The notes below the pieces were generated by a model that searched no databases, was not told the origin of the DNA, and saw only the letters and a program-made list of their open reading frames with translations. A DNA stretch of 47,071 bases from a virus. Every line of letters begins with the position of its first letter. Position 1 is the stretch's first letter. The position numbers and the translations under genes were made by a program. Shown here piece by piece: positions 3,520-42,578 of this stretch. The DNA is taken from positions 1 through 47,071 of the IMG/VR virus record IMGVR_UViG_3300010396_000056; one strand, 5' to 3'.

Positions 3520-3642
3520 CTAGTGCTTGATATGCTGTACGGCACCCACAAAGAGGCACCGAAGGATGTAGGAGATGGCAAGCAGATCGCCAGCCACGAG
3601 GAAGAGGAAAGGGTGCAGGTAGACGCGGTGCACGGGCTTCAT
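3520..3642 (-). CDS. 40-aa membrane miniprotein
   Basis: A 40-codon gene supported by its ATGA overlap (3639-3642) with the HTH gene upstream. The translation begins MKPVHRVYLHPFLFLVAGDL and continues hydrophobic to a short basic end, so one transmembrane helix (about residues 11-30) is predicted, with the basic N-terminus inside the cell. The family is unknown. A small membrane protein co-expressed with a leaderless regulator could act in takeover, exclusion or signalling; the sequence cannot say which. Confidence 0.6.
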   Translation of the reverse strand: MKPVHRVYLHPFLFLVAGDLLAISYILRCLFVGAVQHIKH

Positions 3643-3824
3643 TGCATCATCCTTTCAATCGAAGCGTAGGAGATGCGAACGATGCCTTGCTTGCTGGCGC
3701 TCATCTTTCGGGAGACCAGCTTACCTTCTGCGGCCCATCGCGTGATCGTGCGAACAGAAACGCCCAACAGACCAGCAGCCATTGCTTTGCTGATCCATTG
3801 GGCGGGTGTGGTTGGTTGTGCCAT
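3639..3824 (-). CDS. HTH regulator (excisionase/MerR-like), leaderless
   Basis: A 61-residue winged-helix/HTH protein. ISKAMAAGLLGVSVRTITRWAAEGKL is the canonical pattern of phage excisionase- or MerR-like DNA-binding domains (helix-turn-recognition helix, then a basic wing with RKMSASKQGIVRI). The ATG at 3824 has no SD. It lies 7 nt after a TAGTAT -10 box with TTGACA 17 bp upstream, so the mRNA should start at or beside the A of the ATG. An inverted repeat, AACAT-N5-ATGTT, sits between the boxes and may be an autoregulatory operator. The longer open frame upstream is non-coding. With no integrase present, a transcriptional role is more likely than an excision role. Confidence 0.8.
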   Translation of the reverse strand: MAQPTTPAQWISKAMAAGLLGVSVRTITRWAAEGKLVSRKMSASKQGIVRISYASIERMMQ

Positions 3825-3831
3825 GAGAGGA

Positions 3832-3860
3832 ATACTACAGAACATGGCGTATGTTGTCAA
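3832..3860 (-). promoter_or_regulatory. Sigma70-type promoter with internal operator for HTH gene
   Basis: On the minus strand, -35 TTGACA is at 3860-3855, the spacer is 17 bp, and -10 TAGTAT is at 3837-3832. The inverted repeat AACAT-N5-ATGTT (3841-3855) fills most of the spacer. The TGA inside the -35 hexamer is the stop codon of the upstream zinc-finger gene. Confidence 0.75.
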
Positions 3861-3976
3861 GTGTTGTCTTGTGCGGGCTTGCATTTGTGGCCCGTCACCT
3901 TGCTTGACGGCATCACGGCCTTGCAGTTGAGGCACTGGAACAGCTTGGGGGGACGGCCAGGAGCGCGTGTGGTCAT
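3857..3976 (-). CDS. 39-aa zinc-finger miniprotein (C-x2-C...H-x3-C)
   Basis: A 39-codon gene with ATG at 3976 overlapping the upstream stop as ATGA. The translation begins MTTRAPGRPPKLFQCLNCKA and continues with a GHKCK segment, giving C15-x2-C18 ... H32-x3-C36 or similar, a compact zinc-finger pattern. The basic GRPPK segment is AT-hook-like, so DNA binding is plausible. The stop TGA lies inside the -35 box of the next promoter. The family is unknown. Confidence 0.6.
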   Translation of the reverse strand: MTTRAPGRPPKLFQCLNCKAVMPSSKVTGHKCKPAQDNT

Positions 3977-4158
3977 GGCTGCGACTCCTTGAGACGGAAC
4001 TGAGTGCAGCGGCATGTCGCGTACTCGCAGTCGCTACCCTCGGGCGTCTCGCTCCACGTGTGATCGTCATAACTGTGACCACAGACGCAGAGAAGGTCAA
4101 AGTCCGCGTCGCAAGTGATGTTTAGCGGCAAGGTGGTTACGTGTATGCGCTCGCTCAT
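3973..4158 (-). CDS. 61-aa Cys-rich protein, probable zinc ribbon
   Basis: A 61-residue acidic protein with five cysteines (C16, C24, C26, C43 and a CRC pair near residues 49-51) and a histidine, consistent with a zinc-binding fold. Its organisation (LLCVCGHSYDDHTW ... YATCRCTQF) resembles phage proteins with the pattern CxCGH...H...C-x-C. ATGA overlaps at both ends (3973-3976 and 4155-4158) place it in the coupled early string. No function can be assigned. Confidence 0.6.
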   Translation of the reverse strand: MSERIHVTTLPLNITCDADFDLLCVCGHSYDDHTWSETPEGSDCEYATCRCTQFRLKESQP

Positions 4159-4388
4159 TTGCCCCTCGCTTTCAGTTTCTCAGCCCTGACCCTTGCAGCT
4201 TCAATCTTGTACGCCAGGTGTGCGACAGCCTCCCAAGTCACCGCAAGGCGCTGGCGGGTGCCTTTGAGCCTCACCACGGCGTACTCTGGCTCAGCTTCGA
4301 TGACGATGGGGCGGTATCGGCGACCGTCTCGGAGTTCTGAGGCGGTCTCGAATACCAGACGGGAGCGGCGTTCGCGGAGGGCGGTCAT
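4155..4388 (-). CDS. Hypothetical basic early protein (77 aa)
   Basis: A 77-residue, Arg-rich protein predicted as two or three beta strands (VIEAEPEYAVVRLKGTRQRLAVTW) followed by a basic helix (AYKIEAARVRAEKLKARGK). This is compatible with nucleic acid binding. The ATG at 4388 is chosen because it overlaps the stop of the 26-aa membrane gene (ATGA at 4385-4388). The longer open frame reads through that gene out of phase. The family is not recognised. Confidence 0.6.
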   Translation of the reverse strand: MTALRERRSRLVFETASELRDGRRYRPIVIEAEPEYAVVRLKGTRQRLAVTWEAVAHLAYKIEAARVRAEKLKARGK

Positions 4389-4465
4389 TTGGCCCACATC
4401 CAGACGACACAGAGGGCAGTGAGAGCGCCGAGCAGGTAGGTGGTTAGGTGGCGTAGGATGGTCAT
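4385..4465 (-). CDS. 26-aa membrane micropeptide
   Basis: A 26-codon gene, ATG at 4465 and TGA at 4385-4387, with ATGA overlaps on both sides (4462-4465 and 4385-4388). The translation is MTILRHLTTYLLGALTALCV followed by VWMWAK, a single predicted transmembrane helix with a basic N-terminus. Both overlaps and the clean membrane profile argue that it is translated. Function unknown. Confidence 0.5.
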   Translation of the reverse strand: MTILRHLTTYLLGALTALCVVWMWAK

Positions 4466-4782
4466 GCGAATAGCTCCATCGCCATCGCGTAACGTTCTGA
4501 ATCACGAAAGATGCACTCCTGCTGAAACTTCATATTGCTCTGCATGATCGAAACGAATCCGTAGCTGGTAAACTCTGCGATGTAGGTCTTTCCATCACTG
4601 CCGTCTACGATACGGGCCATCTTCGCAAACGTGAGTTTCTTCGGCTCTCCGGTCGTGGTGCGAACCGCACGCTCACCGCGGTTGGTTTGCTCAATCTCGA
4701 ACCGAGCGGTGACTCGCTTGCTTCCACTCGGCCAGTCGTGAATAACTGCGGACATTCGTGGGTTGTTGTACGTGATTTCCAT
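4462..4782 (-). CDS. Hypothetical early protein (106 aa)
   Basis: A 106-residue beta-rich protein of unknown family. Alternating strands (RVTARFEIEQTNRGERAVRTTTGEPKKLTFAK, then a K-T-YIAEFTSYGFVSIMQ segment) suggest a small beta barrel, but I cannot name a fold. The start at 4782 follows an SD presented in a 7-position hairpin (4786-4807). The SD's TAG is also the stop codon of the upstream gene. It is coupled downstream to the 26-aa membrane peptide. Confidence 0.65.
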   Translation of the reverse strand: MEITYNNPRMSAVIHDWPSGSKRVTARFEIEQTNRGERAVRTTTGEPKKLTFAKMARIVDGSDGKTYIAEFTSYGFVSIMQSNMKFQQECIFRDSERYAMAMELFA

Positions 4783-4785
4783 TTG

Positions 4786-4807
4786 TCATTGCCTCCTAAA
4801 GCGATGA
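4786..4807 (-). promoter_or_regulatory. SD-in-loop hairpin upstream of 106-aa gene
   Basis: Minus strand TCATCGC-TTTAGGAG-GCAATGA, a 7-position stem with one mismatch (C/A) and AGGAG in the loop, close to the ATG at 4782. The TAG in the loop terminates the upstream gene, so terminating ribosomes would pass through the hairpin. Confidence 0.5.
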
Positions 4808-5074
4808 ACGGGTTATGCTGCTGTTGGCGTCTAGTTTCATGTTGCGTTGAGCGCGACGGGCGATAGCGCGGGCCTTCACGTTCGGTTGCCGCTTTGCTTC
4901 AGTGGAAGCCTTAGCGGGGATACTGTGGACGTGGCGCTGTACCGCCTTGCATTGTTCGGAGCGGTCAAGAGCATCGAAATCCGCATGACCGTAGGCGTTG
5001 CGGGTTGAATCCCATGCCGATACGAAGCCGGGGCGTTTCGGGGCGTACCAGGTGGTTGTGTGAGTGAACATCAT
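4796..5074 (-). CDS. Hypothetical basic early protein (92 aa)
   Basis: A 92-residue protein with an aromatic, His-rich N-terminus (MMFTHTTTWYAPKRPGF) and a strongly basic C-terminal helix (KRQPNVKARAIARRAQRNMK), suggestive of nucleic acid binding. ATGA overlap (5071-5074) couples it to the clamp-loader-like gene. It ends in the TAG that forms part of the next gene's SD. No family recognised. Confidence 0.6.
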   Translation of the reverse strand: MMFTHTTTWYAPKRPGFVSAWDSTRNAYGHADFDALDRSEQCKAVQRHVHSIPAKASTEAKRQPNVKARAIARRAQRNMKLDANSSITRSSL

Positions 5075-5742
5075 GCCCTCAATGCGTCTAGTTTTGAATC
5101 GAGAATGGAGAGAGCAGCGCGAACGTTTCCGTTCTGCTCTTTGATGAGCCGGGCCATGTTTGGCGCGGGTGAGTCTGTTTCAGCCGTCCACACACGCTCT
5201 AGAAGCTGCGTCGCGTCCGACTGTATGCCGTAGGTAGAGAATGGGAGAACGCGATTGCGGGACAGGAAACGGTCTGCGAATCGATCAGTAGCATTGCAGG
5301 TGAAGATCCACACGCAGTCTGGTATCGTGGCCGTACCGTCGAGGTAGGACAGGCAAGCAAGCTGCGCCGCGGCACTCATCTGGTCAGCTTCATCTACGAT
5401 GATTACGTGGCGAGTGAATCCAGGTGGCGCGTAGTAGTGACAAGAGAACGCCAGTTCGCGCACCTTGTCTACGGTGCATTGGCCGGCGGGGACGTGATGC
5501 ACGAACCCTTGCAGTTCACGAGCGACGGCTAGTGCCATGCTCGTCTTTCCGGTTCCGGCAGGGCCACAAAACAACATTCCGATTGCACGCGGATTGCTCA
5601 CGAAACCTGCTAAAGTACGTTTAGTTTCAGTGAGTCCGGCGAATTCAGCGATGCGCGTTGGGCGGTATTTCTCGCAGAGCGGCTCGGGGAAAGCGAATCC
5701 TGGCATCGGGGCGAGTTCGGGGAATAGGAGAGTGGATGTCAT
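5071..5742 (-). CDS. Clamp-loader-like AAA+ ATPase
   Basis: A 223-residue AAA+ protein closely resembling a clamp-loader small subunit (RFC small/DnaX type). The N-terminal EKYRPTRIAEFAGL is the RFC box. Walker A is GPAGTGKT (60-67) and Walker B is VIIVDEAD (113-120). A TCNATD sensor I region follows, then SRNRVLPF at about 161-168, where clamp loaders have the SRC arginine-finger motif; here Cys is replaced by Asn. It is shorter than usual (300 or more residues) and lacks most of the C-terminal collar domain. No sliding clamp or DNA polymerase is visible in this genome, so it may recruit or remodel the host replisome. It sits second in the early operon, coupled on both sides by ATGA overlaps. 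Confidence 0.85.
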   Translation of the reverse strand: MTSTLLFPELAPMPGFAFPEPLCEKYRPTRIAEFAGLTETKRTLAGFVSNPRAIGMLFCGPAGTGKTSMALAVARELQGFVHHVPAGQCTVDKVRELAFSCHYYAPPGFTRHVIIVDEADQMSAAAQLACLSYLDGTATIPDCVWIFTCNATDRFADRFLSRNRVLPFSTYGIQSDATQLLERVWTAETDSPAPNMARLIKEQNGNVRAALSILDSKLDALRA

Positions 5743-5960
5743 GCCGAAACCGCCAGCGTGATGTCCGACTCGCAGTCGAGCATTTCACCTTCGAGCACTT
5801 CGAGGTTCCATGAACGTCCTCCGTCTGTCCAGTAAACGAAACGGTCAACCTTGTTCGTGGCATACTCGCCGGTGTGAATCTCGCACACCAAGCCAACCGT
5901 GCGAGTGCGGTCAAGAACTACAGTTCCAACCGGAACGTCCCTCAATTCGAGGTATGTCAT
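5739..5960 (-). CDS. First early-operon gene, hypothetical (73 aa)
   Basis: A 73-residue acidic, beta-rich protein of unknown family (MTYLELRDVPVGTVVLDRTRTVG..., with YWTDGGRSW). It is the promoter-proximal gene of the leftward unit. The ATG at 5960 is chosen for its strong SD AGGAGG inside a perfect 6-bp hairpin (5965-5983). Upstream in-frame ATGs lie within the promoter region and lack an SD. It is coupled to the clamp-loader-like gene by ATGA (5739-5742). First-expressed early genes are often host-takeover factors; that is inference from position only. Confidence 0.65.
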   Translation of the reverse strand: MTYLELRDVPVGTVVLDRTRTVGLVCEIHTGEYATNKVDRFVYWTDGGRSWNLEVLEGEMLDCESDITLAVSA

Positions 5961-5964
5961 CTGG

Positions 5965-5983
5965 TATCGCCTCCTAAGCGATA
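5965..5983 (-). promoter_or_regulatory. SD-in-loop hairpin of the first early gene
   Basis: Minus strand TATCGC-TTAGGAG-GCGATA, a perfect 6-bp inverted repeat with the SD (TTAGGAG) filling the 7-nt loop. A GGA in an apical hairpin loop is the geometry bound by CsrA/RsmA-type repressors. It is the best example of the repeated element in this genome. Confidence 0.65.
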
Positions 5984-5988
5984 TACAT

Positions 5989-6017
5989 ACAGTAAATGAC
6001 AACAACGTTATTGTCAA
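5989..6017 (-). promoter_or_regulatory. Leftward early promoter with 20-bp palindromic operator
   Basis: On the minus strand, -35 TTGACA is at 6017-6012, followed after 17 bp by TACTGT at 5994-5989, a weak -10. The near-perfect palindrome TGACAACAACGTTATTGTCA (5997-6016, one mismatched pair) overlaps the -35 and the spacer, as expected for a repressor operator. The region is AT-rich compared with its surroundings. The start of the leftward unit at 5960 fits. Confidence 0.65.
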
Positions 6018-6051
6018 CATCTAAATAAATCCAGTGTTTATGCGGTTTCTA

Positions 6052-6060
6052 TGCTACAAT
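6052..6060 (+). promoter_or_regulatory. Rightward promoter candidate, extended -10
   Basis: TGCTACAAT is an extended -10 motif (TGn plus TACAAT at 6055-6060) with no good -35. It begins an 11-bp direct repeat, CTACAATTGCC (6054-6064), whose second copy is at 6119-6129. Confidence 0.45.
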
Positions 6061-6118
6061 TGCCTATCGCTTGATACGTCCGACTCTCAATCGGATAGCT
6101 ATTCGCGGTCAATCCGCT

Positions 6119-6129
6119 CTACAATTGCC
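6119..6129 (+). promoter_or_regulatory. Second CTACAATTGCC repeat; -10 for leaderless start at 6132
   Basis: This copy holds TACAAT at 6120-6125, ending 6 nt before the ATG at 6132. No SD precedes that ATG, so transcription from this box would give a leaderless message. No convincing -35 was found at 16-18 bp. Confidence 0.45.
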
Positions 6130-6131
6130 GC

Positions 6132-6620
6132 ATGAGCACCACGATAGAAGCAATACAGTCGGCACCTGACGCTCCACGGCGTACTGCGAGACGCTACACA
6201 GGGCCAACAGGTGCCGCTCCTCTCATCCGCAGAGCCAAGCAACGCAACCCAAACCTCACAAACTCAGAGATAGCTCGCCGTGTCGGATGCTCTCCAAGCA
6301 ACGTTGACTACGTATTGAAGCGCTACTTGGGCAAGAACAATGAAGCCGACCTGCGCCAATTCCAAGATAATCAAGCGGATGCGTTCGATGCAGTCGCAAT
6401 GCGGTCATTGTTATCCATCACACCGAAGAAGTTGGCAACAGCGAGCGCGGTCCAGCTGATGACGGCTGCTGCGATCGCTACAGACAAGGCGCGTCTGGTA
6501 CGCGGCCAGGCTACAGGCATCAACGTCAACGTGCTGATGGATGTGGTTGAGGCGATAAGGCTTAGGGGTAGACAGCCTGTAGTTCAGAAGCCAATCAGCG
6601 GTGGATCTGCGGGTGAGTAG
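6132..6620 (+). CDS. HTH DNA-binding protein, possible terminase small subunit
   Basis: A 162-residue protein. After a basic N-terminus (RRTARRYTGPTG), residues about 42-63 form an HTH (NLTNSEIARRVGCSPSNVDYVLKRY). A helical region follows, with the pattern SITPKKLATASAVQLMTAAAIATDKARLVRGQAT. That second region resembles the oligomerisation part of HTH proteins found near phage terminase genes, so a small terminase role is possible, although TerL is 3.8 kb away. The alternative is a regulator, supported by its position at the divergent control region and its apparently leaderless start. No SD is visible upstream of the ATG. Confidence 0.7.
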   Translation: MSTTIEAIQSAPDAPRRTARRYTGPTGAAPLIRRAKQRNPNLTNSEIARRVGCSPSNVDYVLKRYLGKNNEADLRQFQDNQADAFDAVAMRSLLSITPKKLATASAVQLMTAAAIATDKARLVRGQATGINVNVLMDVVEAIRLRGRQPVVQKPISGGSAGE

Positions 6621-6792
6621 CTGCGAGTCGTGCGGGTTCCGGCGCGGTCGCATCACCGTGGTGTGGCCTAGTGGTGAGAGGCTACATGTCTGCGGTCGCT
6701 GTTGGTACGCTATACGAGACAACCGCTTTGCTATCAATGGCTTAGGTTGGCGCTCACGCTGCACCATGCACAGGCTGCAACGCGTGGTGTAG
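6613..6792 (+). CDS. Zinc-ribbon small protein (59 aa)
   Basis: A 59-residue basic protein with two C-x2-C knuckles, CESCGF near the N-terminus and CGRCW at about residue 31, so one zinc ribbon is predicted. The GTG at 6613 overlaps the preceding stop region (GTGAGTAG) and gives a compact protein; an upstream in-frame GTG at 6601 is the alternative. It is probably translationally coupled to the HTH gene. It may act as a nucleic-acid or RNA-polymerase binding factor, but this is unproven. Confidence 0.55.
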   Translation: MSSCESCGFRRGRITVVWPSGERLHVCGRCWYAIRDNRFAINGLGWRSRCTMHRLQRVV

Positions 6793-6815
6793 GTGGCTAT
6801 GTGTAACATTTTGTT

Positions 6816-6852
6816 GGGGTTGGGGCCATATAAGAATGCTTGTGGGGTGGGG
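6816..6852 (+). other. Four G4 runs, potential G-quadruplex
   Basis: GGGG runs lie at 6816-6819, 6822-6825, 6844-6847 and 6849-6852, in two closely spaced pairs separated by 18 nt. Each pair is followed by CCAT, so the segment is also an imperfect duplication (GGGGTTGGGGCCAT and GGGGTGGGGCCAT). It lies in the non-coding stretch 6793-6959 upstream of a strong promoter. Confidence 0.4.
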
Positions 6853-6906
6853 CCATCCCCCATGCGTTGACGTACGCCCGTCGAGGGTTCATATCCCCGT
6901 CTCGCA
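6842..6906 (+). other. tRNA-like fold remnant (not a standard tRNA)
   Basis: A 65-nt segment folds on paper as a closing stem GTGGGGT/GTCTCGC (all pairs possible but four wobbles). Inside are a GGGG-CCAT-CCCC hairpin, a GCGT-TGACGT-ACGC hairpin and a GGG-TTCATAT-CCC T-arm-like hairpin, ending in A then T5. It is too short, has a 6-nt anticodon-position loop and lacks A58, so it is not a normal tRNA. It could be a decayed tRNA or a tRNA-derived attachment sequence. Confidence 0.2.
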
Positions 6907-6924
6907 TTTTTCCGCTAAAACAGG

Positions 6925-6953
6925 TTGACATGTGTGTTCATTTGTAATACTAT
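6925..6953 (+). promoter_or_regulatory. Strong sigma70-type promoter for leaderless RHH gene
   Basis: TTGACA (6925-6930), a 17-bp spacer, TACTAT (6948-6953), then 6 nt to the ATG at 6960. The sequence is AT-rich, and no SD precedes the ATG. It is the best promoter match on the plus strand. Confidence 0.8.
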
Positions 6954-6959
6954 GTAGTC

Positions 6960-7334
6960 ATGTTGATATCGCTTAGAATACAAGATGAGTTGATGGTTGA
7001 GATTGACCGTTTGGCTGAGTCCGATGGTCGTAGCCGAAACTCGTTCATTGTTCGAGCGCTGGAGGGGATGTATGGAAACGGCAGAGTTGATGGGTCAGAG
7101 TCGGGATCATCGGTTGGCGGAGGTGGGGACGGAACCGGAGTGTCCGTTGTGCGGAAGGCCGAGGGTGACAAGAAGCTGTTACATCCGGTGCAACCCTTGC
7201 GGGGTGAACTGGCTGGACGAGGAGATGCACCTGCCCAACTACCTCCAGCGGGACCCGCGAGTAGTTCGCCGGGAAGCTGCCCTCATGGTAAACGGAACGC
7301 GGCCTACTGCCGGGCAACCGGGGGCGGGTGCTGA
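6960..7334 (+). CDS. Ribbon-helix-helix regulator, leaderless
   Basis: The open frame gives 124 residues. The first 39 or so (MLISLRIQDELMVEIDRLAE followed by SDGRSRNSFIVRALEGMYG) form a complete Arc/CopG ribbon-helix-helix domain: one beta strand for DNA contact and two helices for dimerisation. The remainder is low-complexity (Gly, Ser, Pro) and overlaps the next gene in another frame, so it may be a disordered tail read through an overprinted region. The ATG lies 6 nt after a consensus promoter without an SD. It is a likely regulator of the rightward unit. Confidence 0.7.
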   Translation: MLISLRIQDELMVEIDRLAESDGRSRNSFIVRALEGMYGNGRVDGSESGSSVGGGGDGTGVSVVRKAEGDKKLLHPVQPLRGELAGRGDAPAQLPPAGPASSSPGSCPHGKRNAAYCRATGGGC

Positions 7335-7338
7335 ATGA
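7072..7338 (+). CDS. Zinc-ribbon protein overlapping the RHH gene
   Basis: An 88-residue protein with CPLC (about residue 24) and C-x3-C-x2-C (SCYIRCNPC) motifs, a clear zinc ribbon. The ATG at 7072 is preceded by GGAGG at a good distance. It overlaps the RHH open frame by about 260 nt in the +1 phase, and its codon pattern looks more natural there than the RHH tail. It overlaps the next gene by ATGA (7335-7338). Function unknown. Confidence 0.6.
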   Translation: METAELMGQSRDHRLAEVGTEPECPLCGRPRVTRSCYIRCNPCGVNWLDEEMHLPNYLQRDPRVVRREAALMVNGTRPTAGQPGAGAE

Positions 7339-8940: not shown

Positions 8941-9380
8941 GTCTGAGCTTAGGAGGCATGTTCGGATGCATCTGCCAGGACTCACGCGAACAAGTACATC
9001 TTGACACAATCAGATGTCTCATGCAAGTATGAAGTTGCCAGTGACTCTTATGCGGACGACCCCCGAACAATTCGGCTCGATACTCCCCACGACATCACAG
9101 GTCCGTGCATTCGGCTCAATTGGGAATTGCTACCCGAGAGAGTAACCGGCCCCTTGTGGGGGCTGCCCCCGCTCACTGGTCGATAGAGGATCGGTCTTCT
9201 GCGGGAGCCGAGCGTAAGCAATTGTGAGCTTGCAGAGCGATGGCGCATACCGGATAAAGGCATACCTTTACCAGCCCACGGAGACCAAGTTCACCCTTGT
9301 TTTCCGTGGCACACCCGAAACAGGCATCACTAAAAAAACTTGCTTTTGTTGTTGCTTCTAAAATGATTGCTGAGGCTTAT
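8941..9380. other. Non-coding stretch with short repeats
   Basis: No convincing gene. A TTG-started open frame at 9001-9186 lacks an SD and looks non-coding. The stretch has a direct repeat ATTCGGCTC (9070-9078 and 9109-9117), an inverted repeat CAATT-GGG-AATTG (9117-9129), a GGGGG-CTG-CCCCC hairpin (9158-9170), two GCATACC copies near 9245 and 9260, and an A/T-rich tract (9325-9380) leading to the dpdA-like gene. It could hold an origin or a promoter for the late region; neither is shown. Confidence 0.4.
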
Positions 9381-10106
9381 ATGAGGTTCTTCGTAGGACT
9401 CCACCAACCTAGCGATGCCAAGAACTTTTCGGCCTCGTTCGTTTCGGTGAATAGAATCCGCGATAGAAAATCTTCCTTTGAGATTGGCGACTGGATCATG
9501 GACAGCGGCGCGTTCACGGAAGTATCTACGCACGGTCGGTATCGCCATTCAGTTGAGGAATACGCAGAACAGATACGACGATGGAAAGACAATGGCAACT
9601 TGCTTGCGGCGGTATCTCAGGACTATATGTGCGAGCCCTTCATCGTGGAGAAGACTGGACTATCGGTTGCCGAGCATCAGGCGCTCACCATCGAACGCTA
9701 TGACACTTTGCTGACTTGTAATACTGGGGTTCTAATAATGCCCGTCCTGCAAGGATTCCACCCCGATGATTACGTTCGCCATATCCGCATGTACGGCGAG
9801 CGCTTGAAACCTGGCATGTGGGTTGGCGTGGGTTCTGTCTGCAAGCGCAATGGAAACATCCGAGCCATAGAAGATGTGCTGCTTACAATCCACCGAGAGA
9901 GACCGGATTTGAGGTTACATGGCTTCGGATTGAAAACCACGGCTTTATCATCTGGTCTTGTTCAGGAGTTGCTTCACACGGCAGATTCTATGGCCTGGTC
10001 ATTTGCAGCTCGCATTTCTGGGAGAAACGGAAATGACTGGCGCGAGGCTAGGGATTGGTCGAACCGTATAACGTCGAGGGCTGTACAGATGCCAATGTTT
10101 GTTTGA
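9381..10106 (+). CDS. dpdA: DpdA-like deazaguanine DNA transglycosylase
   Basis: A 241-residue protein of the tRNA-guanine transglycosylase (TGT) superfamily, of the phage DpdA-like type that exchanges guanine in DNA for a 7-deazaguanine and so protects against restriction. The active-site-type segment WIMDSGAFTEV (38-48) matches the TGT DSGGFQ motif. PVLQG (121-125) matches the substrate-site VQGG, VGVGSVCKR (148-156) follows, and ADSMAWSFAAR (201-211) matches the region of the catalytic Asp. MRFFVGLHQPSDAKNF at 9381 is a typical N-terminus for these proteins; the open frame upstream is A/T-rich leader. No folE, queD, queE or queC homologue is visible, so the deazaguanine would come from the host. 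Confidence 0.8.
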   Translation: MRFFVGLHQPSDAKNFSASFVSVNRIRDRKSSFEIGDWIMDSGAFTEVSTHGRYRHSVEEYAEQIRRWKDNGNLLAAVSQDYMCEPFIVEKTGLSVAEHQALTIERYDTLLTCNTGVLIMPVLQGFHPDDYVRHIRMYGERLKPGMWVGVGSVCKRNGNIRAIEDVLLTIHRERPDLRLHGFGLKTTALSSGLVQELLHTADSMAWSFAARISGRNGNDWREARDWSNRITSRAVQMPMFV

Positions 10107-10199: not shown

Positions 10200-10421
10200 A
10201 TGAGCAAGGAAATAGACTGGGAAAAAATAACAGGATGTCAGCCGTGGATCGAAGCTGGCATTGGCGACCGCGTGGTGACTTGGGATGAATGGTGCGCACT
10301 CCTGGCCGAGTACAAGGTGTACCGAAGGCTGACGGAATTGCAGATCCAAGCAACAGTGCAGAGCCAAGCAGACATCGACCACTATTTAGATTTGGCCCGC
10401 TCAGAGATTGCCGAGGGATAG
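10200..10421 (+). CDS. Hypothetical protein upstream of terminase (73 aa)
   Basis: A 73-residue acidic protein (MSKEIDWEKITGCQPWIEAG...) with a helical C-terminus. GGAAGGGAG precedes the ATG at 10200. It lies directly before the large terminase, where a small packaging subunit often sits, but I see no HTH, so that role is only a possibility. Confidence 0.55.
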   Translation: MSKEIDWEKITGCQPWIEAGIGDRVVTWDEWCALLAEYKVYRRLTELQIQATVQSQADIDHYLDLARSEIAEG

Positions 10422-10428
10422 GAACCGA

Positions 10429-12150
10429 ATGGCTCGCAAGGTAGCTGCACCGACACCCGCTCCCGACCTACTCGAAGGCTACGACCCTAAAGACCCTGCG
10501 TCTCTACAGGTGATCGAAGACAAGGTACGCAGCTACGTAAAGCTGGCGTTCCTGAAGATGAACCGGGCGCAGGAGCCGTTCGTTCGCATCAGGAACAAGC
10601 GGGGCCGGATGCCGAGGGTGCGTCTGTTCGAGAGCGGAAATCAAACGGGAAAATCTGCTATAGGAGTAGCCGAGGACATTGCACACGCGATGGGATTCAG
10701 GCCGTGGTTGGACAAGAACGACCCCGACTACAAGATCAACGTGCGCGTCCCCAACAACGGCCTGGTGGGTTGCGAGGTCGCAGGGCAGACGTTGGCGCAG
10801 AGGATCGAACCGGAGTTCATGCAACTCATCCCGGCGTACTGCGGGGTGACAACCACCCGCTACTCTGACGGGTCAATCAAAAGCCTCCACATCACCAACG
10901 ACTTCAACGGCAAGCCCTGCGGTTCCACCATCCACTTCCGCTCGTACGTGCAGTCAGCAGAGAGCTACGAAGGCGTTGTGCTGGACTGGATTCACTTTGA
11001 CGAGCCGCCACCGCAGGAGATTCTTACCGCTGCCACACGCGGCCTTATGAGCACCAACGGGCCAAGCTGGTACACCATGACGCCGTTGAAAGAGGCGTAC
11101 ATTTACGACCTGTTCTCGCTGCACGCTTTCAACCAGGGCGGCGAGGATCAGGAGATTGCCGTCTTCCGTGGCTCGACGTGGGACAACTGCCAAGACTGGT
11201 GCCGCGACTGCGACACGACGATCCCCGAGAACGACCCTGAAGTTTTGAAGGCGGGGCAGGTTCGCCCGGTGGACAACTGCCCGAAGTGCGGTCGCGTTAT
11301 GGGATTCCTGCCCCGCGCCGGCATTGAGAACTACCTGAAGAAGATCACCGACCCGGACGAGCGCGAAGCGCGCGAAGAAGGCAAGTGGAAGCATCTATCT
11401 GGACTGGTTTACAAGGAGCTTGACCGTGAAAAACACATATACGAAGACTTTCAAATTCCTAACGACTGGATGCGCATCGAAGTCCTCGATCCCCACGATG
11501 CCAGACCTTGCTGCTGGCTATTCGGAGCCGTATCGCCAGAGGATATCTCAGTTAATGGAAGAGCAGCGAACCGAATGTACTGGTACGCGTACCTTCGACC
11601 TAGTGGAAACATCGAGTCCATCTGCCGTCAGGTTCGCGTGAAGCGTGCCGAACACAATTACAAAGAGCCCGCAATGCTCATCATCGATGTGAAGTTCGCG
11701 GCCGCTGAGAAGCCCCTGCATGGAGAGTCCTACCCGTCATGGGAAGAGGAGCTTGAGAAGGCCGGCATGAAGCGCATCGTCCACTCCTGCTCGAACCCCG
11801 GCGACGTGTCTCTCGGTCACAAGCGAGTGAAGGAGTACCTGCAACCGCACTACTCCACAGTGAAGGACAAGAGTTTCCCCGGCATGATGTTTGCGAGGCA
11901 GGGAACCAGCGGTGACGGTGGCCCCATGCAGCACATGAGTAACTACGCCTGGAAAGAAGGCAGCGACAAACCGATGGAGGCGTACAAAGACTTCTGCGAC
12001 TGCGTGCGCTACGCTTGCCTCGAACAGCCAACCTATTCCCCGCCGCAACCAGAGATAGACGAAGCGTTCGCACGCATGCTCATGGATCGAGAGTCCATGA
12101 AGCCCCCGGAGAGCATTCTCTTCAGCGGCCTGAACATGAGGAATCAGTGA
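10429..12150 (+). CDS. terL: Terminase large subunit
   Basis: A 573-residue DNA-packaging motor. The ATPase has a Walker A variant SGNQTGKS (69-76) and a Walker B with catalytic acidic residues in VLDWIHFDEPPP. A TMTPLKEAY coupling segment follows. A zinc-knuckle insertion (CQDWCRDC ... CPKCG) sits between the ATPase and nuclease halves. The RNase H-like nuclease shows LIIDVKFAAAEK and a distal acidic DFCDCVRYA segment. It cuts and translocates DNA into the prohead through the portal at 13310. The ATG at 10429 has AGGA upstream. It overlaps the GNAT gene by GTGA (12147-12150). Confidence 0.92.
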   Translation: MARKVAAPTPAPDLLEGYDPKDPASLQVIEDKVRSYVKLAFLKMNRAQEPFVRIRNKRGRMPRVRLFESGNQTGKSAIGVAEDIAHAMGFRPWLDKNDPDYKINVRVPNNGLVGCEVAGQTLAQRIEPEFMQLIPAYCGVTTTRYSDGSIKSLHITNDFNGKPCGSTIHFRSYVQSAESYEGVVLDWIHFDEPPPQEILTAATRGLMSTNGPSWYTMTPLKEAYIYDLFSLHAFNQGGEDQEIAVFRGSTWDNCQDWCRDCDTTIPENDPEVLKAGQVRPVDNCPKCGRVMGFLPRAGIENYLKKITDPDEREAREEGKWKHLSGLVYKELDREKHIYEDFQIPNDWMRIEVLDPHDARPCCWLFGAVSPEDISVNGRAANRMYWYAYLRPSGNIESICRQVRVKRAEHNYKEPAMLIIDVKFAAAEKPLHGESYPSWEEELEKAGMKRIVHSCSNPGDVSLGHKRVKEYLQPHYSTVKDKSFPGMMFARQGTSGDGGPMQHMSNYAWKEGSDKPMEAYKDFCDCVRYACLEQPTYSPPQPEIDEAFARMLMDRESMKPPESILFSGLNMRNQ

Positions 12151-13037: not shown

Positions 13038-13310
13038 ATGTCTGGAATCTCAACCGCAACCGCTCTCCTGATATCGGCAGGCGTGGGCCTTGCTACCACA
13101 GGAGCCACGCTGGGCTACGAGGCATCGCAGGGTGGCCCACAAGCCCCGTCAGCGACCGACACAGAGAAGCAGCAGGCGGAAGCCGCCAACGCATCGGCGC
13201 AGGCCCAGGCGCTGGCATTGCAGAAGCGGCGCGGCATGGCAGCGACACAACTCACAAGCCCACTCGGGACGAACACTCCCGCGAACGTGGCGAAAGCGAC
13301 CCTCGGCTAA
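13038..13310 (+). CDS. Small Ala/Gln-rich virion-type protein
   Basis: A 90-residue protein with an N-terminal hydrophobic stretch (ATALLISAGVGLATTGATLG) and a helical Ala/Gln-rich remainder. Its start MSGIS-T-ATA-L-LI is nearly identical to that of the protein at 24978, which lies among the internal virion proteins. A virion or membrane-associated role is inferred. GAGG precedes the ATG. TAATG overlaps the portal gene. Confidence 0.6.
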   Translation: MSGISTATALLISAGVGLATTGATLGYEASQGGPQAPSATDTEKQQAEAANASAQAQALALQKRRGMAATQLTSPLGTNTPANVAKATLG

Positions 13311-15175
13311 TGGTGCCCATGATGGCCGCAACCCGGCAAGGTCTGTCGAACTCATACGGTGAGTCGAAGCTGGGTGCTCGCAACAACGACCAGAAGGCCA
13401 AGGACTGCGAGAAGTACCTTGAGGTTCTTGCGCTGCAACGCCTCTATTGGGAACCGCAGCTCGACAACATCATCGCGTTCGTAAACCACGGAAGACGCTT
13501 CATCCAAGACCGCGACTTGCAAGACGGACAGCAGACCGGACAAGAGGTATTTGACGATACGGCGATGCTGGCACGTAACAAACTGGTTGATGGTATGACC
13601 GGCTATCTCTGCTCGCGCAATCAGCCGTGGTTCGGTCTGGAACTACCCGGCAAGATCAACTTCCCCCGCACGTCGGGGATGCGTGCGTGGAACGGTCAGC
13701 GTGTGGACTCCTATCCACAGGTGCAGAAGTGGCTACAGGACTGCGGTGAGGTTCTGTACTCTGCGTTCAACCGCTCGAACTTCTACGACAAGAACCCGGA
13801 ATTTATCTCGGACGGAGCGACATGCGGTACGGCCTACTTCCTGATCGAAGAGGACATCAAGAACAGCCGCGCAGTGTTCACGGTTCCCCACTTCCGCGAG
13901 TGCTTCATTGCCGAAAACGAGTTCGGACAGGTGGACACCAACTACCGCGTGTACCGCATGACCCTGCGGCAGATGGTTGAGAAGTTCGGCATGGACGAGA
14001 TGGAGAAGGCCGACCGAAACTTCAAAAAAGACTACGAAGCAAACATGTACGCCGAGCGCGACATCCTCCACGCCATCTACCCGCGTGCGGACTTCAACCC
14101 CGGACGCGCCGACGCCAAGGGGAAGAAGTGGGAGAGCGTGTGGGTGTACCGCCAAGGCGGAAAGATTCTCCCGCGCCAAGGTTCCACATCTGGCAGGGAC
14201 GACAAGATCACCATGCTCCACGAGGGCGGCTACGATTCCATGCCGATTATCTCGTGGCGCTGGCGGGTGAACAGCGATGAGGTTTACGGTCGCGGCCCCG
14301 CTCACGATGCTTTCGTGGCTATCGCTCTGGCAAATCAGATGGGGAGAACCAATCTGGTAACTGCCCAGCGCGCCGCAGAGCCTCCGCTAGTGGCGTACTC
14401 GGACATGCGCGGATCAATTCAGCGAGGGCCAGCGGGCATCACGTACATGGAAGGGAACCGTGGCGACATCCGCACACGCGCTCCGCAGCAGTTGACGACC
14501 GGCGTGCAGAATCTTCCATTCACCGTGGAGTACCAAGACCGCCGCGCCGCGATCATCAACGAATACTTCCACACCGACGTTTTTATGATGATGTCGCAGC
14601 TTGCCAACGCGGGCAAGAGCGAGCGTATGGTGCAGGAGCAGGTACAGGAATTGCAGGGCGAGAAGGCCGCAATCCTCGGTACCCGCGTCGGCAACCTTCA
14701 GTCTGAGGCGTTCGACCACATCATCAACCGCATGTACGAAATCGAAGCCGCTGCCGGCCGCATTCCCATGCCTCCCGACATCCTGCTCAACTCGATTCAC
14801 GCGAAGGTGGAGATTCAGTATCTCGGGCCACTGGCGCAGGCGCAGACGCGGCTCACGGCGGTTCGCAACATCCAGTCGGGACTTGGACTGGTGACGGCGA
14901 TCGCGCAGATCAACCCAACGTCCGTGGACATGATCGACTACGACCAGGCGGCGATTGAGGCGCTTCAGGCGGTCAGCTTCCCAGCGTCGTGCATCCGCGA
15001 TACCAAGCAGGTCACAGCCATCCGTCAGCAGCGTTCTCAGATGCAGGAAGCGGAGCGCAAGACCGAGGCGATACCGAAGCTGGCGGGAGCGGCGGCAAAG
15101 CTGGCGAAGCAACCGGAGTCGGGCAGCATCCTTGAGAAGCTGATGGGCGGAGGCGGCGATGCAGAACAGCAGTAA
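13310..15175 (+). CDS. Portal (head-to-tail connecting protein)
   Basis: A 621-residue podovirus portal. The N-terminus has the family pattern of a helical segment, then DNIIAFVNHGRRFIQDRD and a DDTAMLARNKLVDGMTGYLCSRNQPWFGLEL segment. This matches the bacteriophage head-to-tail connecting family of T7-like connectors. Twelve copies would form the DNA entry channel and contact TerL and the tail. It starts by TAATG overlap with the preceding gene; GTG or ATG codons at 13313-13322 are alternative starts. The Ala/Gly-rich C-terminus (GGGGDAEQQ) is overlapped by the next gene. Confidence 0.9.
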   Translation: MVPMMAATRQGLSNSYGESKLGARNNDQKAKDCEKYLEVLALQRLYWEPQLDNIIAFVNHGRRFIQDRDLQDGQQTGQEVFDDTAMLARNKLVDGMTGYLCSRNQPWFGLELPGKINFPRTSGMRAWNGQRVDSYPQVQKWLQDCGEVLYSAFNRSNFYDKNPEFISDGATCGTAYFLIEEDIKNSRAVFTVPHFRECFIAENEFGQVDTNYRVYRMTLRQMVEKFGMDEMEKADRNFKKDYEANMYAERDILHAIYPRADFNPGRADAKGKKWESVWVYRQGGKILPRQGSTSGRDDKITMLHEGGYDSMPIISWRWRVNSDEVYGRGPAHDAFVAIALANQMGRTNLVTAQRAAEPPLVAYSDMRGSIQRGPAGITYMEGNRGDIRTRAPQQLTTGVQNLPFTVEYQDRRAAIINEYFHTDVFMMMSQLANAGKSERMVQEQVQELQGEKAAILGTRVGNLQSEAFDHIINRMYEIEAAAGRIPMPPDILLNSIHAKVEIQYLGPLAQAQTRLTAVRNIQSGLGLVTAIAQINPTSVDMIDYDQAAIEALQAVSFPASCIRDTKQVTAIRQQRSQMQEAERKTEAIPKLAGAAAKLAKQPESGSILEKLMGGGGDAEQQ

Positions 15176-17835: not shown

Positions 17836-18879
17836 ATGCCTGACGTATCGCAACTCCCTTACTCGACATTTACCGACATCGTGGCGAACTACTCGTCTCT
17901 CGATGCGGGCGCACGGTTCGTCATGCCAAAGCGCATCCTCGACCGCATGACGCCGCTGGTGAAGATGCTCCCGATGGTGGCGAGCAACAACATCCTCTCC
18001 AACATCGCCACCCGCACCGACTCCCTCCCGGTCGCTTCCACCAGGCGCTTCAACGAAGGCATCCTCGCGACGACTTCCAAGAACGCGCCGATCAACGACC
18101 CCATCGCCATGTTCGAGGACTACTCGGAAGTGGACATGGCTCTGTGGAAGTTGCAGAACAACCCGAACGCGTGGCGCTCCGATCAGGACATGAACCACAT
18201 CGAAGGGCTGTTTCAGTTGATGGAGTCGATGTTGTTCTACGGCTCCCTGTCGCAGAACCCCGGCGCGTTCAACGGCCTCGCGACTCGCTTCAACAACCTT
18301 GAGTCCTTCCCCAACGGCGACACTTCGTGGCAGCCGAACGTGTGGGACGGTGGCGCTCGCAACGTCAACTGCACATCGGCGTGGATGATCGAGTTCAGCG
18401 AAGACTCGGTGTATGGCATCTACCCGTCGAACAGCATGGCGGGCCTGAGCGTGCGTGACCTTGGCGAAGTGACCAAGGAGCGTCCGAGCGGTTCCGGGGC
18501 CATCGGCGCGAATTACATGTATCAGGTTCTCCGCACGATGCTCTCGTGGTACATGGGCATCCAGATCGCGGACGAACGCTGCGTGCAGCGCATCGCCAAC
18601 ATCAACCCCGTCGCTCTCTCGCAGGGCAACTTCGATGAGAACATTTTCATTCAGGCGAAGAACCAGCTTCCTCGCTCGGGTGAGACTTCGGGCACGGTGA
18701 TTCTCGTCAACCGCCTTCTGAAGACGCAGATCGACATCCGCGCTGTCTCGCAGAAGATCAACGCCTACACCATGTTCAAGCCGGGCATGGACGTTTTCGG
18801 CAGCCCCGTCACTGAGTTTCAGGGCATCCCGATTTACGTTGCTGAAAAGATCCTCAACACCGAAACCGTTCTGACCTAG
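17836..18879 (+). CDS. Major capsid protein
   Basis: A 347-residue protein following the scaffold, with the pattern of the podovirus HK97-fold capsid family. An N-terminal helical arm is followed by RRFNEGILATTSK ... MFEDYSEVDMALW and LFYGSLSQNPGAFNGLATRFNNL. The C-terminal half contains PVTEFQGIPIYVAEKIL, the sort of segment found near the C-terminus of this family. GAAGGAG precedes the ATG. The protein has no visible maturation protease site. Called from neighbours and from the characteristic internal segments. Confidence 0.88.
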   Translation: MPDVSQLPYSTFTDIVANYSSLDAGARFVMPKRILDRMTPLVKMLPMVASNNILSNIATRTDSLPVASTRRFNEGILATTSKNAPINDPIAMFEDYSEVDMALWKLQNNPNAWRSDQDMNHIEGLFQLMESMLFYGSLSQNPGAFNGLATRFNNLESFPNGDTSWQPNVWDGGARNVNCTSAWMIEFSEDSVYGIYPSNSMAGLSVRDLGEVTKERPSGSGAIGANYMYQVLRTMLSWYMGIQIADERCVQRIANINPVALSQGNFDENIFIQAKNQLPRSGETSGTVILVNRLLKTQIDIRAVSQKINAYTMFKPGMDVFGSPVTEFQGIPIYVAEKILNTETVLT

Positions 18880-24977: not shown

Positions 24978-25466
24978 ATGTCGGGAATTTCTTCTGCAAC
25001 CGCAATGCTCATCGCCGGTGGAACATCGTCTGCCCTGACAGCGGGCGGGAAGATATTGCAGGGCCAAGAGCAGAAGCAAGCCTACGACTACAACGCCGAC
25101 ATCACTAAACTCAACACCGACAACAAGGTAGAGGCCAATCAGGACGCCTTCACTGCCTTAGTGGGACGGCAAGCCACGGCATACGCTGCGTCCGGGGTGG
25201 ACATCGCCTCCGGTTCTCCACTCCTGACGATGATTGCCACTTCCGCGCGCGGTGCGCGAGAGGGGGAGCAGATTGAAGAGTCCGGTACGGAGCAGGCCAA
25301 CCTCCAGCGCTACTACGGGCGCATCGCCGCGTTCTCTGGAACTATGAGCGGCATCGGTGCATTTTTGCAGGGGATGAGTGGAGACCTTGCCTCCTACGCG
25401 AAACTCACCAACAACCCCATTCCGACCGGAGACCCTAACGCTCCCTACGGCCCCAACTCGGACTGA
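24978..25466 (+). CDS. Internal virion-type protein (162 aa)
   Basis: A 162-residue protein starting with a hydrophobic segment (MSGISSATAMLIAGG) and continuing helical, Ala/Gly-rich, with a QGQEQKQAYDYNADITKLNTDN segment. Position and character fit a T7 gp14-like internal core protein. The start is nearly identical to that of the protein at 13038. Start chosen at ATG with AGGA upstream. Confidence 0.65.
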   Translation: MSGISSATAMLIAGGTSSALTAGGKILQGQEQKQAYDYNADITKLNTDNKVEANQDAFTALVGRQATAYAASGVDIASGSPLLTMIATSARGAREGEQIEESGTEQANLQRYYGRIAAFSGTMSGIGAFLQGMSGDLASYAKLTNNPIPTGDPNAPYGPNSD

Positions 25467-42080: not shown

Positions 42081-42331
42081 CGTGTCTCGCTTTCCTGTGG
42101 GGTGGGTGAGTTGCGCTTGAGTAATTCTTGCTGCCTGTGGTTCCAGTCGCGGCATACGGTGACGTTTGCGAATGCCTGTGGTTGCGCCCTCCGCAGCAGT
42201 TCCACGGCCTCCGTAAGCTCGCACTGAATAATCTGCGCATCCTTGTGCTCGACAGGAAGGTGGTCGAACCGCTCCCATAGCGCCACGTTTGCTTGCCCTA
42301 GCTGCTCCTGCGTCCAAACTTTGTCGCTCAT
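42077..42331 (-). CDS. Hypothetical helical early protein (84 aa)
   Basis: An 84-residue helical, charged protein (MSDKVWTQEQLGQANVALWE...). ATGA overlaps on both sides (42077-42080 and 42328-42331). No family recognised. Confidence 0.6.
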   Translation of the reverse strand: MSDKVWTQEQLGQANVALWERFDHLPVEHKDAQIIQCELTEAVELLRRAQPQAFANVTVCRDWNHRQQELLKRNSPTPQESETR

Positions 42332-42543
42332 CCTTGCCGCCTTTCGATGCGCTCGTACACCACAAACCTGCGGAATCCCAGCCACGAAAGCAGCTTTCCA
42401 TGCATAGGCCCACCGTGGACAACGGGCGAGAGATTCTGCGGCTTGATGCCAGCGTCACGAGACAATTCAGCCTGCGTCATGGCCTCCAACTTCTTGTGGA
42501 GATATTTGCGAACGTCTTGTTCGGTGAAAAGTTTTTTCGCCAT
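42328..42543 (-). CDS. HTH regulator (Cro/CI-like), leaderless
   Basis: A 71-residue protein. The N-terminal helix region (KLFTEQDVRKYLHKKLEAM) is followed by an HTH_3-like TQAELSRDAGIKPQNLSPVVHG segment, a compact Cro-like domain. The ATG lies 5 nt after TATTAT with TTGACA 18 bp upstream, and no SD is present, so the mRNA is probably leaderless. It is the second HTH regulator of the leftward unit. The short basic C-terminus could be a dimerisation arm. Confidence 0.75.
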   Translation of the reverse strand: MAKKLFTEQDVRKYLHKKLEAMTQAELSRDAGIKPQNLSPVVHGGPMHGKLLSWLGFRRFVVYERIERRQG

Positions 42544-42548
42544 GACTC

Positions 42549-42578
42549 ATAATAGTCACAACATTAGTCGCATGTCAA
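42549..42578 (-). promoter_or_regulatory. Sigma70-type promoter for leaderless Cro-like gene
   Basis: -35 TTGACA at 42578-42573, 18-bp spacer, -10 TATTAT at 42554-42549, then 5 nt to the ATG. The TGA within the -35 hexamer is the stop codon of the upstream HNH gene. Three TAGTC repeats (plus-strand reading 42553, 42565, 42579) overlap the site and may be operators. Confidence 0.7.

Follow-up and report, generated by a model that had tools for sequence, protein, structure and literature searches.

The question raised by this locus is why small genes for DNA-binding proteins start directly behind promoter -10 hexamers, at a distance that would make their messages leaderless. The window, which is the whole stretch of DNA analysed here, is an IMG/VR virus record of 47 kb (47,071 nucleotides) with 57.8% G+C. 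Its podovirus-type genes are those for the terminase large subunit (TerL, 10408-12150), the head-tail adaptor (13310-15175), the major head protein (17836-18879), and an internal virion protein (24978-25466). The rightward genes are flanked on the left by a leftward block with clamp loader, ParB-like, Sak4/UvsX-like, and Gam-like genes, and at the right end of the window by a second leftward block with HNH, primase, and helicase genes. A queuine tRNA-ribosyltransferase-like gene (9297-10106, plus strand) separates the small regulator genes from the terminase. No lysogeny module was identified in the window. The adaptor matched only remote Treponema/Spirochaetia loci in genome_contigs (28-32% identity), and its named phage relatives, epsilon15-like and Pelagibacter-phage-like, are all below 30% identity; thus, no host is assigned.

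Four starts directly behind -10 hexamers

A sequence-only reading of the window had claimed that four genes for DNA-binding proteins start 5 to 7 nt after a -10 hexamer, three of them with TTGACA at 17-18 bp, and that they have no Shine-Dalgarno (SD) sequence while most other genes have one. The sequence, read again, agrees with this geometry. On the minus strand, a 61-aa HTH_17/MerR-type gene (3639..3824; Pfam HTH_17, 8.6e-7, above the cut-off; PHROG excisionase/MerR) follows TTGACA-17-TAGTAT with 7 nt (TCCTCTC) to the ATG (promoter 3825..3860), and the first purine downstream of the -10 is the A of the ATG. The second minus-strand gene (42328..42543; 71 aa) follows TTGACA-18-TATTAT with 5 nt to the ATG (promoter 42544..42578). 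It has no Pfam match of its own and is assigned to HTH only via a 41% identical homolog in the related locus L031, whose match to HTH_3 (E 0.0012) is itself below the cut-off.

On the plus strand, the first rightward gene (6132..6620) encodes a 162-aa HTH protein (Pfam HTH_24, above the cut-off), a possible small terminase subunit. It is preceded by TACAAT and a 6-nt spacer (6120..6131), with no recognisable -35. An exact 11-nt direct repeat, CTACAATTGCC, is present at 6054-6064 and 6119-6129 on the plus strand, 65 nt apart, and its second copy contains this -10. The fourth gene (6960..7334, plus strand) is of the ribbon-helix-helix (RHH), CopG-like type; residues 1-40 match Pfam RHH_1 at 5.6e-5, above the cut-off. 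Its promoter (6925..6959) is TTGACA-17-TACTAT with 6 nt to the ATG. An 88-aa zinc-ribbon ORF (CPLCG...CNPCG; 7072-7338, plus strand), preceded by an SD-like GGAGGGG, overlaps this gene in another frame, so the C-terminal 80 aa of the RHH protein may be merely an overlapping open frame.

None of the four starts has a convincing SD; a 4-nt match upstream of 42543 sits in the promoter. Among the called genes of the window and its relatives, 571 of 711 match at least 4 nt of the SD and 331 at least 5 nt, overlapping pieces being counted twice in both figures. A simple gene caller missed the genes at 3824 and 6960, and small regulators of this kind can be overlooked or given a wrong start by callers that rely on the SD. 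The early leftward operon provides a contrasting promoter (5961..6017, minus strand), in which a leader of 28 nt, with AGGAGG upstream of the start codon at 5960, follows TTGACA-17-TACTGT. One genome thus carries both designs, leaderless and SD-leadered perfect promoters.

Excess over chance and recurrence in relatives

Hexamers resembling a -10 could fall near ATGs by chance, with the true transcription starts lying further upstream. The window contains 436 TAnnnT sites, and 8 of them (1.8%) are followed at 5-7 nt by an ATG that opens a reading frame of at least 60 aa. When a perfect promoter is defined as TTGACA at 16-19 nt from TAnnnT, three of the four such sites are leaderless (3824-, 42543-, and 6960+; binomial p about 2e-5). 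The start at 6132 taken alone is at chance level, since about 1% of the sites with a poor -35 are leaderless by chance. It speaks for coincidence unless its relatives are brought in as evidence.

Relatives were collected with the adaptor protein as a query. It retrieved 58 related viral loci; the search covered 23 contigs, and most of their DNA was read. Statistically, these relatives and the overlapping records do not count as independent. The window and relatives together amount to 638 kb with 35 TTGACA/TAnnnT sites. An ORF start lies at 5-7 nt from 10 of these sites, 7 of them at exactly 6 nt, where the rate at 12-39 nt would predict 1.8. TTGACA-TAnnnT-N4-9-ATG was found 12 times in the contigs searched, and its reversed control twice. 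The layout is common to the orthologous HTH genes of L185 and L006 (TATGCT, 7 and 6 nt) and to the orthologous Zn-finger-like genes of L193 and L201. The L031 homolog of the 42543 gene shows TTGACA-17-GAGACT-7-ATG, with a weak -10. Pattern scans of viral contigs yielded no close homologs of 3824, 6960, or 42543; phmmer against the collected relatives recovered this 42543 homolog, with 3824 and 6960 giving weak matches.

For the 6132 family, conservation of the -10 to ATG distance in related phages had been proposed as a check, and in this family the distance is kept. Of 15 homologs, 9 have a usable start preceded by TAnnnT at 5-8 nt; counted in the same way, other distances give 1.5 on average (p about 3e-6). 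One of the nine also has TTGACA at 18 nt. Apart from the kept spacing, an alignment of the DNA upstream of these homologs gave no readable shared sequence. In G002 and G003 the homolog stands behind an SD leader instead, indicating that the leaderless mode can switch.

The base directly before the start codon is independent of how the leaderless set was selected, as it played no part in the selection. It is C or T in 25 of 26 leaderless candidates and in 152 of 331 SD-led genes (p 1.5e-7). Bacterial transcription prefers to start at a purine preceded by a pyrimidine, and a message beginning on the start codon should therefore show a pyrimidine at -1. This signature is the one observation that would place the 5' end of the message on the start codon itself. 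Together with the distance controls and the coincidence with perfect TTGACA boxes, it stands against chance placement, which is considered very improbable. As judged from sequence, the leaderless reading is well supported.

Gene content and the limits of a regulator class

The leaderless genes are associated with DNA-binding families. Pfam HTH, RHH, or ParD matches (E<=0.01) were found in 7 of 16 leaderless genes and in 1 of 138 small SD-led genes (p 2e-7), the single match among the latter being a Phd/YefM antitoxin. In the relatives, leaderless RHH genes are present in L195, L198, L204, L211 (two), and L208 (one), although the RHH assignment of those in L195 and L204 and of one in L211 is based on sub-threshold matches or homologs. 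Leaderless HTH genes are found in L186, L185, and L213. The claim that the design occurs only before genes for DNA-binding proteins holds for the window, where HTH_17, RHH_1, and HTH_24 score above their cut-offs and 42543 is assigned via its homolog. In the relatives, two of the leaderless genes, those of L191 and L215, have no DNA-binding assignment.

The best explanation, given good confidence, is that each of these genes would have its own promoter, used by the RNA polymerase of the host together with the main sigma factor, of sigma70 type. The +1 would be the first base of the start codon, giving a leaderless message that is translated without an SD. The genes would be mostly solitary ones for DNA-binding proteins (RHH, HTH, and possibly a small terminase) that need their own expression, in contrast to the replication and structure genes, which sit in SD-led operons. 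On this reading, the predicted promoters would fire and the encoded proteins would regulate transcription.

An explanation by compactness or host habit agrees with this one on the leaderless reading and differs on why it arose. Solitary small genes with their own promoter would tend to be leaderless in this host, and in these phages would happen to encode DNA-binding proteins, with no translational selection for regulators. It is favoured by the leaderless genes outside HTH and RHH, which comprise the L193/L201 pair (Zn-finger-like by inspection, with no Pfam match), a minus-strand gene for an HNH protein in L208, and those of L191 and L215. Leaderless genes are also common in some phyla, averaging 13% in Acidobacteria and 19% in Actinobacteria (PMC3160421). 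The SD-leadered TTGACA promoters of the same genomes argue against it, as none of the six (5960-, L193, L201, L211, L213, and L208) precedes an HTH or RHH gene; against 12 of 16 for the leaderless set, the difference is significant by Fisher's test (p 0.003, or 0.011 with orthologs collapsed). We give compactness or host habit slightly less than an even chance.

The proposal of a translation class for regulators stands in part. The leaderless design does recur in relatives with small DNA-binding genes, but it is not strict, since SD-led regulators exist: relatives of these regulators are SD-led in L012 (RHH), L039 (XRE-like), and L010 (HTH_17), in further agreement with compactness. Small genes with a low SD match that do not belong to the leaderless set also include a few HTH families. 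Viral contigs at large likewise show no regulator bias, in samples with a different host mix that are indicative only. There, 82 genes are listed behind perfect TTGACA-TATAAT-N5-7-ATG, a set rich in T4-type DNA metabolism and with no HTH among its 25 most frequent families, and HTH_3 accounts for 10 of the 84 genes listed behind SD-leadered perfect promoters. The link to regulators is thus a feature of this lineage rather than of phages generally. Among the genes listed, many T4-like DNA metabolism genes (UvsY, 5'-3' exonuclease, and others) have perfect TTGACA-TATAAT directly before the ATG, which suggests leaderless early genes in T4-like phages with these promoters.

In its strong form, the proposal makes leaderless initiation a selected, lineage-wide mode for DNA-binding proteins. 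Regulator synthesis would be tied to the state of ribosomes and initiation factors, responding to initiation factors, 70S ribosomes, or stress independently of the SD-led genes. The association with DNA-binding families is compatible with it, and leaderless mRNAs are open to 70S initiation and to distinct translation control (PMC12340547, PMC9938897). The SD leaders on members of the class in some relatives argue against a strict functional need, and the proposal is considered improbable.

Instead of regulating transcription, the 6132 protein may serve as a small terminase, which is a fair guess. Its gene is the first rightward one, with TerL at 10408-12150, and the predicted structure is all-helical (mean pLDDT 71), the HTH being N-terminal and the C-terminal part helical. 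Structure comparison gave weak matches only (best E 0.003 among viral proteins and 0.2 in PDB), and the viral ones include several annotated small terminases. A PHROG search with 6132 gave no terminase match.

Inverted repeats at leaderless promoters are mostly at chance level, and none is significant at the four promoters of the window. The compact layout would suit autoregulation, a possible feature of these genes. The palindrome search was clear only at L211 4152- and marginal at L204. In L211, a leaderless ParD-like RHH gene has the palindrome TGCACTTGACAAGTGCA around its -35 (p 0.007) and is the best candidate for autoregulation seen. A 20-bp near-palindrome, TGACAATAACGTTGTTGTCA, at 5996-6015 of the window, overlaps the early leftward promoter (start 5960-; p 0.02). 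In the other fetched loci it is absent, the window's own copy being the only one. It is a possible operator of that promoter.

Known leaderless systems

Classic leaderless cases are lambda cI and tetR of Tn1721 (PMC9938897). Lambda cI, when transcribed from PRM, is likewise a phage DNA-binding regulator whose message begins at the AUG. It is a lysogeny repressor in a known switch, whereas the genes described here are small HTH/RHH orphans. In phage PY54, cI and cro were both found to be leaderless by RACE, with strong promoters directly before the AUG (PMC4488713). This is a precedent for two leaderless regulators in one phage, although in PY54 the starts were mapped experimentally and the operator is known, while here the starts are read from sequence and the genes lie far apart in the genome. 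CvkR, a MerR-type repressor of V-K CRISPR-associated transposons, has a leaderless mRNA (PMC9938897). The parallel lies in a small MerR-like regulator of a mobile element, but the element is a cyanobacterial transposon, and for CvkR both the repressor function and the binding motif are established.

The leaderless transcripts of Burkholderia cenocepacia include a disproportionate number of transcription regulators (PMC4603805), and in Cupriavidus metallidurans the transcription class is enriched among leaderless mRNAs (PMC7563307). The bias is the same as here, though these are bacterial chromosomes with mapped starts, as opposed to predicted starts in a phage lineage. In Deinococcus, a -10 adjoining the ORF is a demonstrated promoter layout (PMC12340547). 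In Deinococcus-Thermus, as predicted here, TAnnnT a few nucleotides before the ORF drives leaderless genes; about a third of all genes there are of this kind, in contrast to a handful here, most of which have TTGACA too.

The leaderless layout is thus known for some phage repressors, and in the sequences analysed here it appears repeated across a podovirus lineage. Leaderless phage regulators have so far been known one by one. A lineage with leaderless promoters before DNA-binding genes and SD-leadered promoters before operons lends itself naturally to comparative work on why regulators so often lack a leader.
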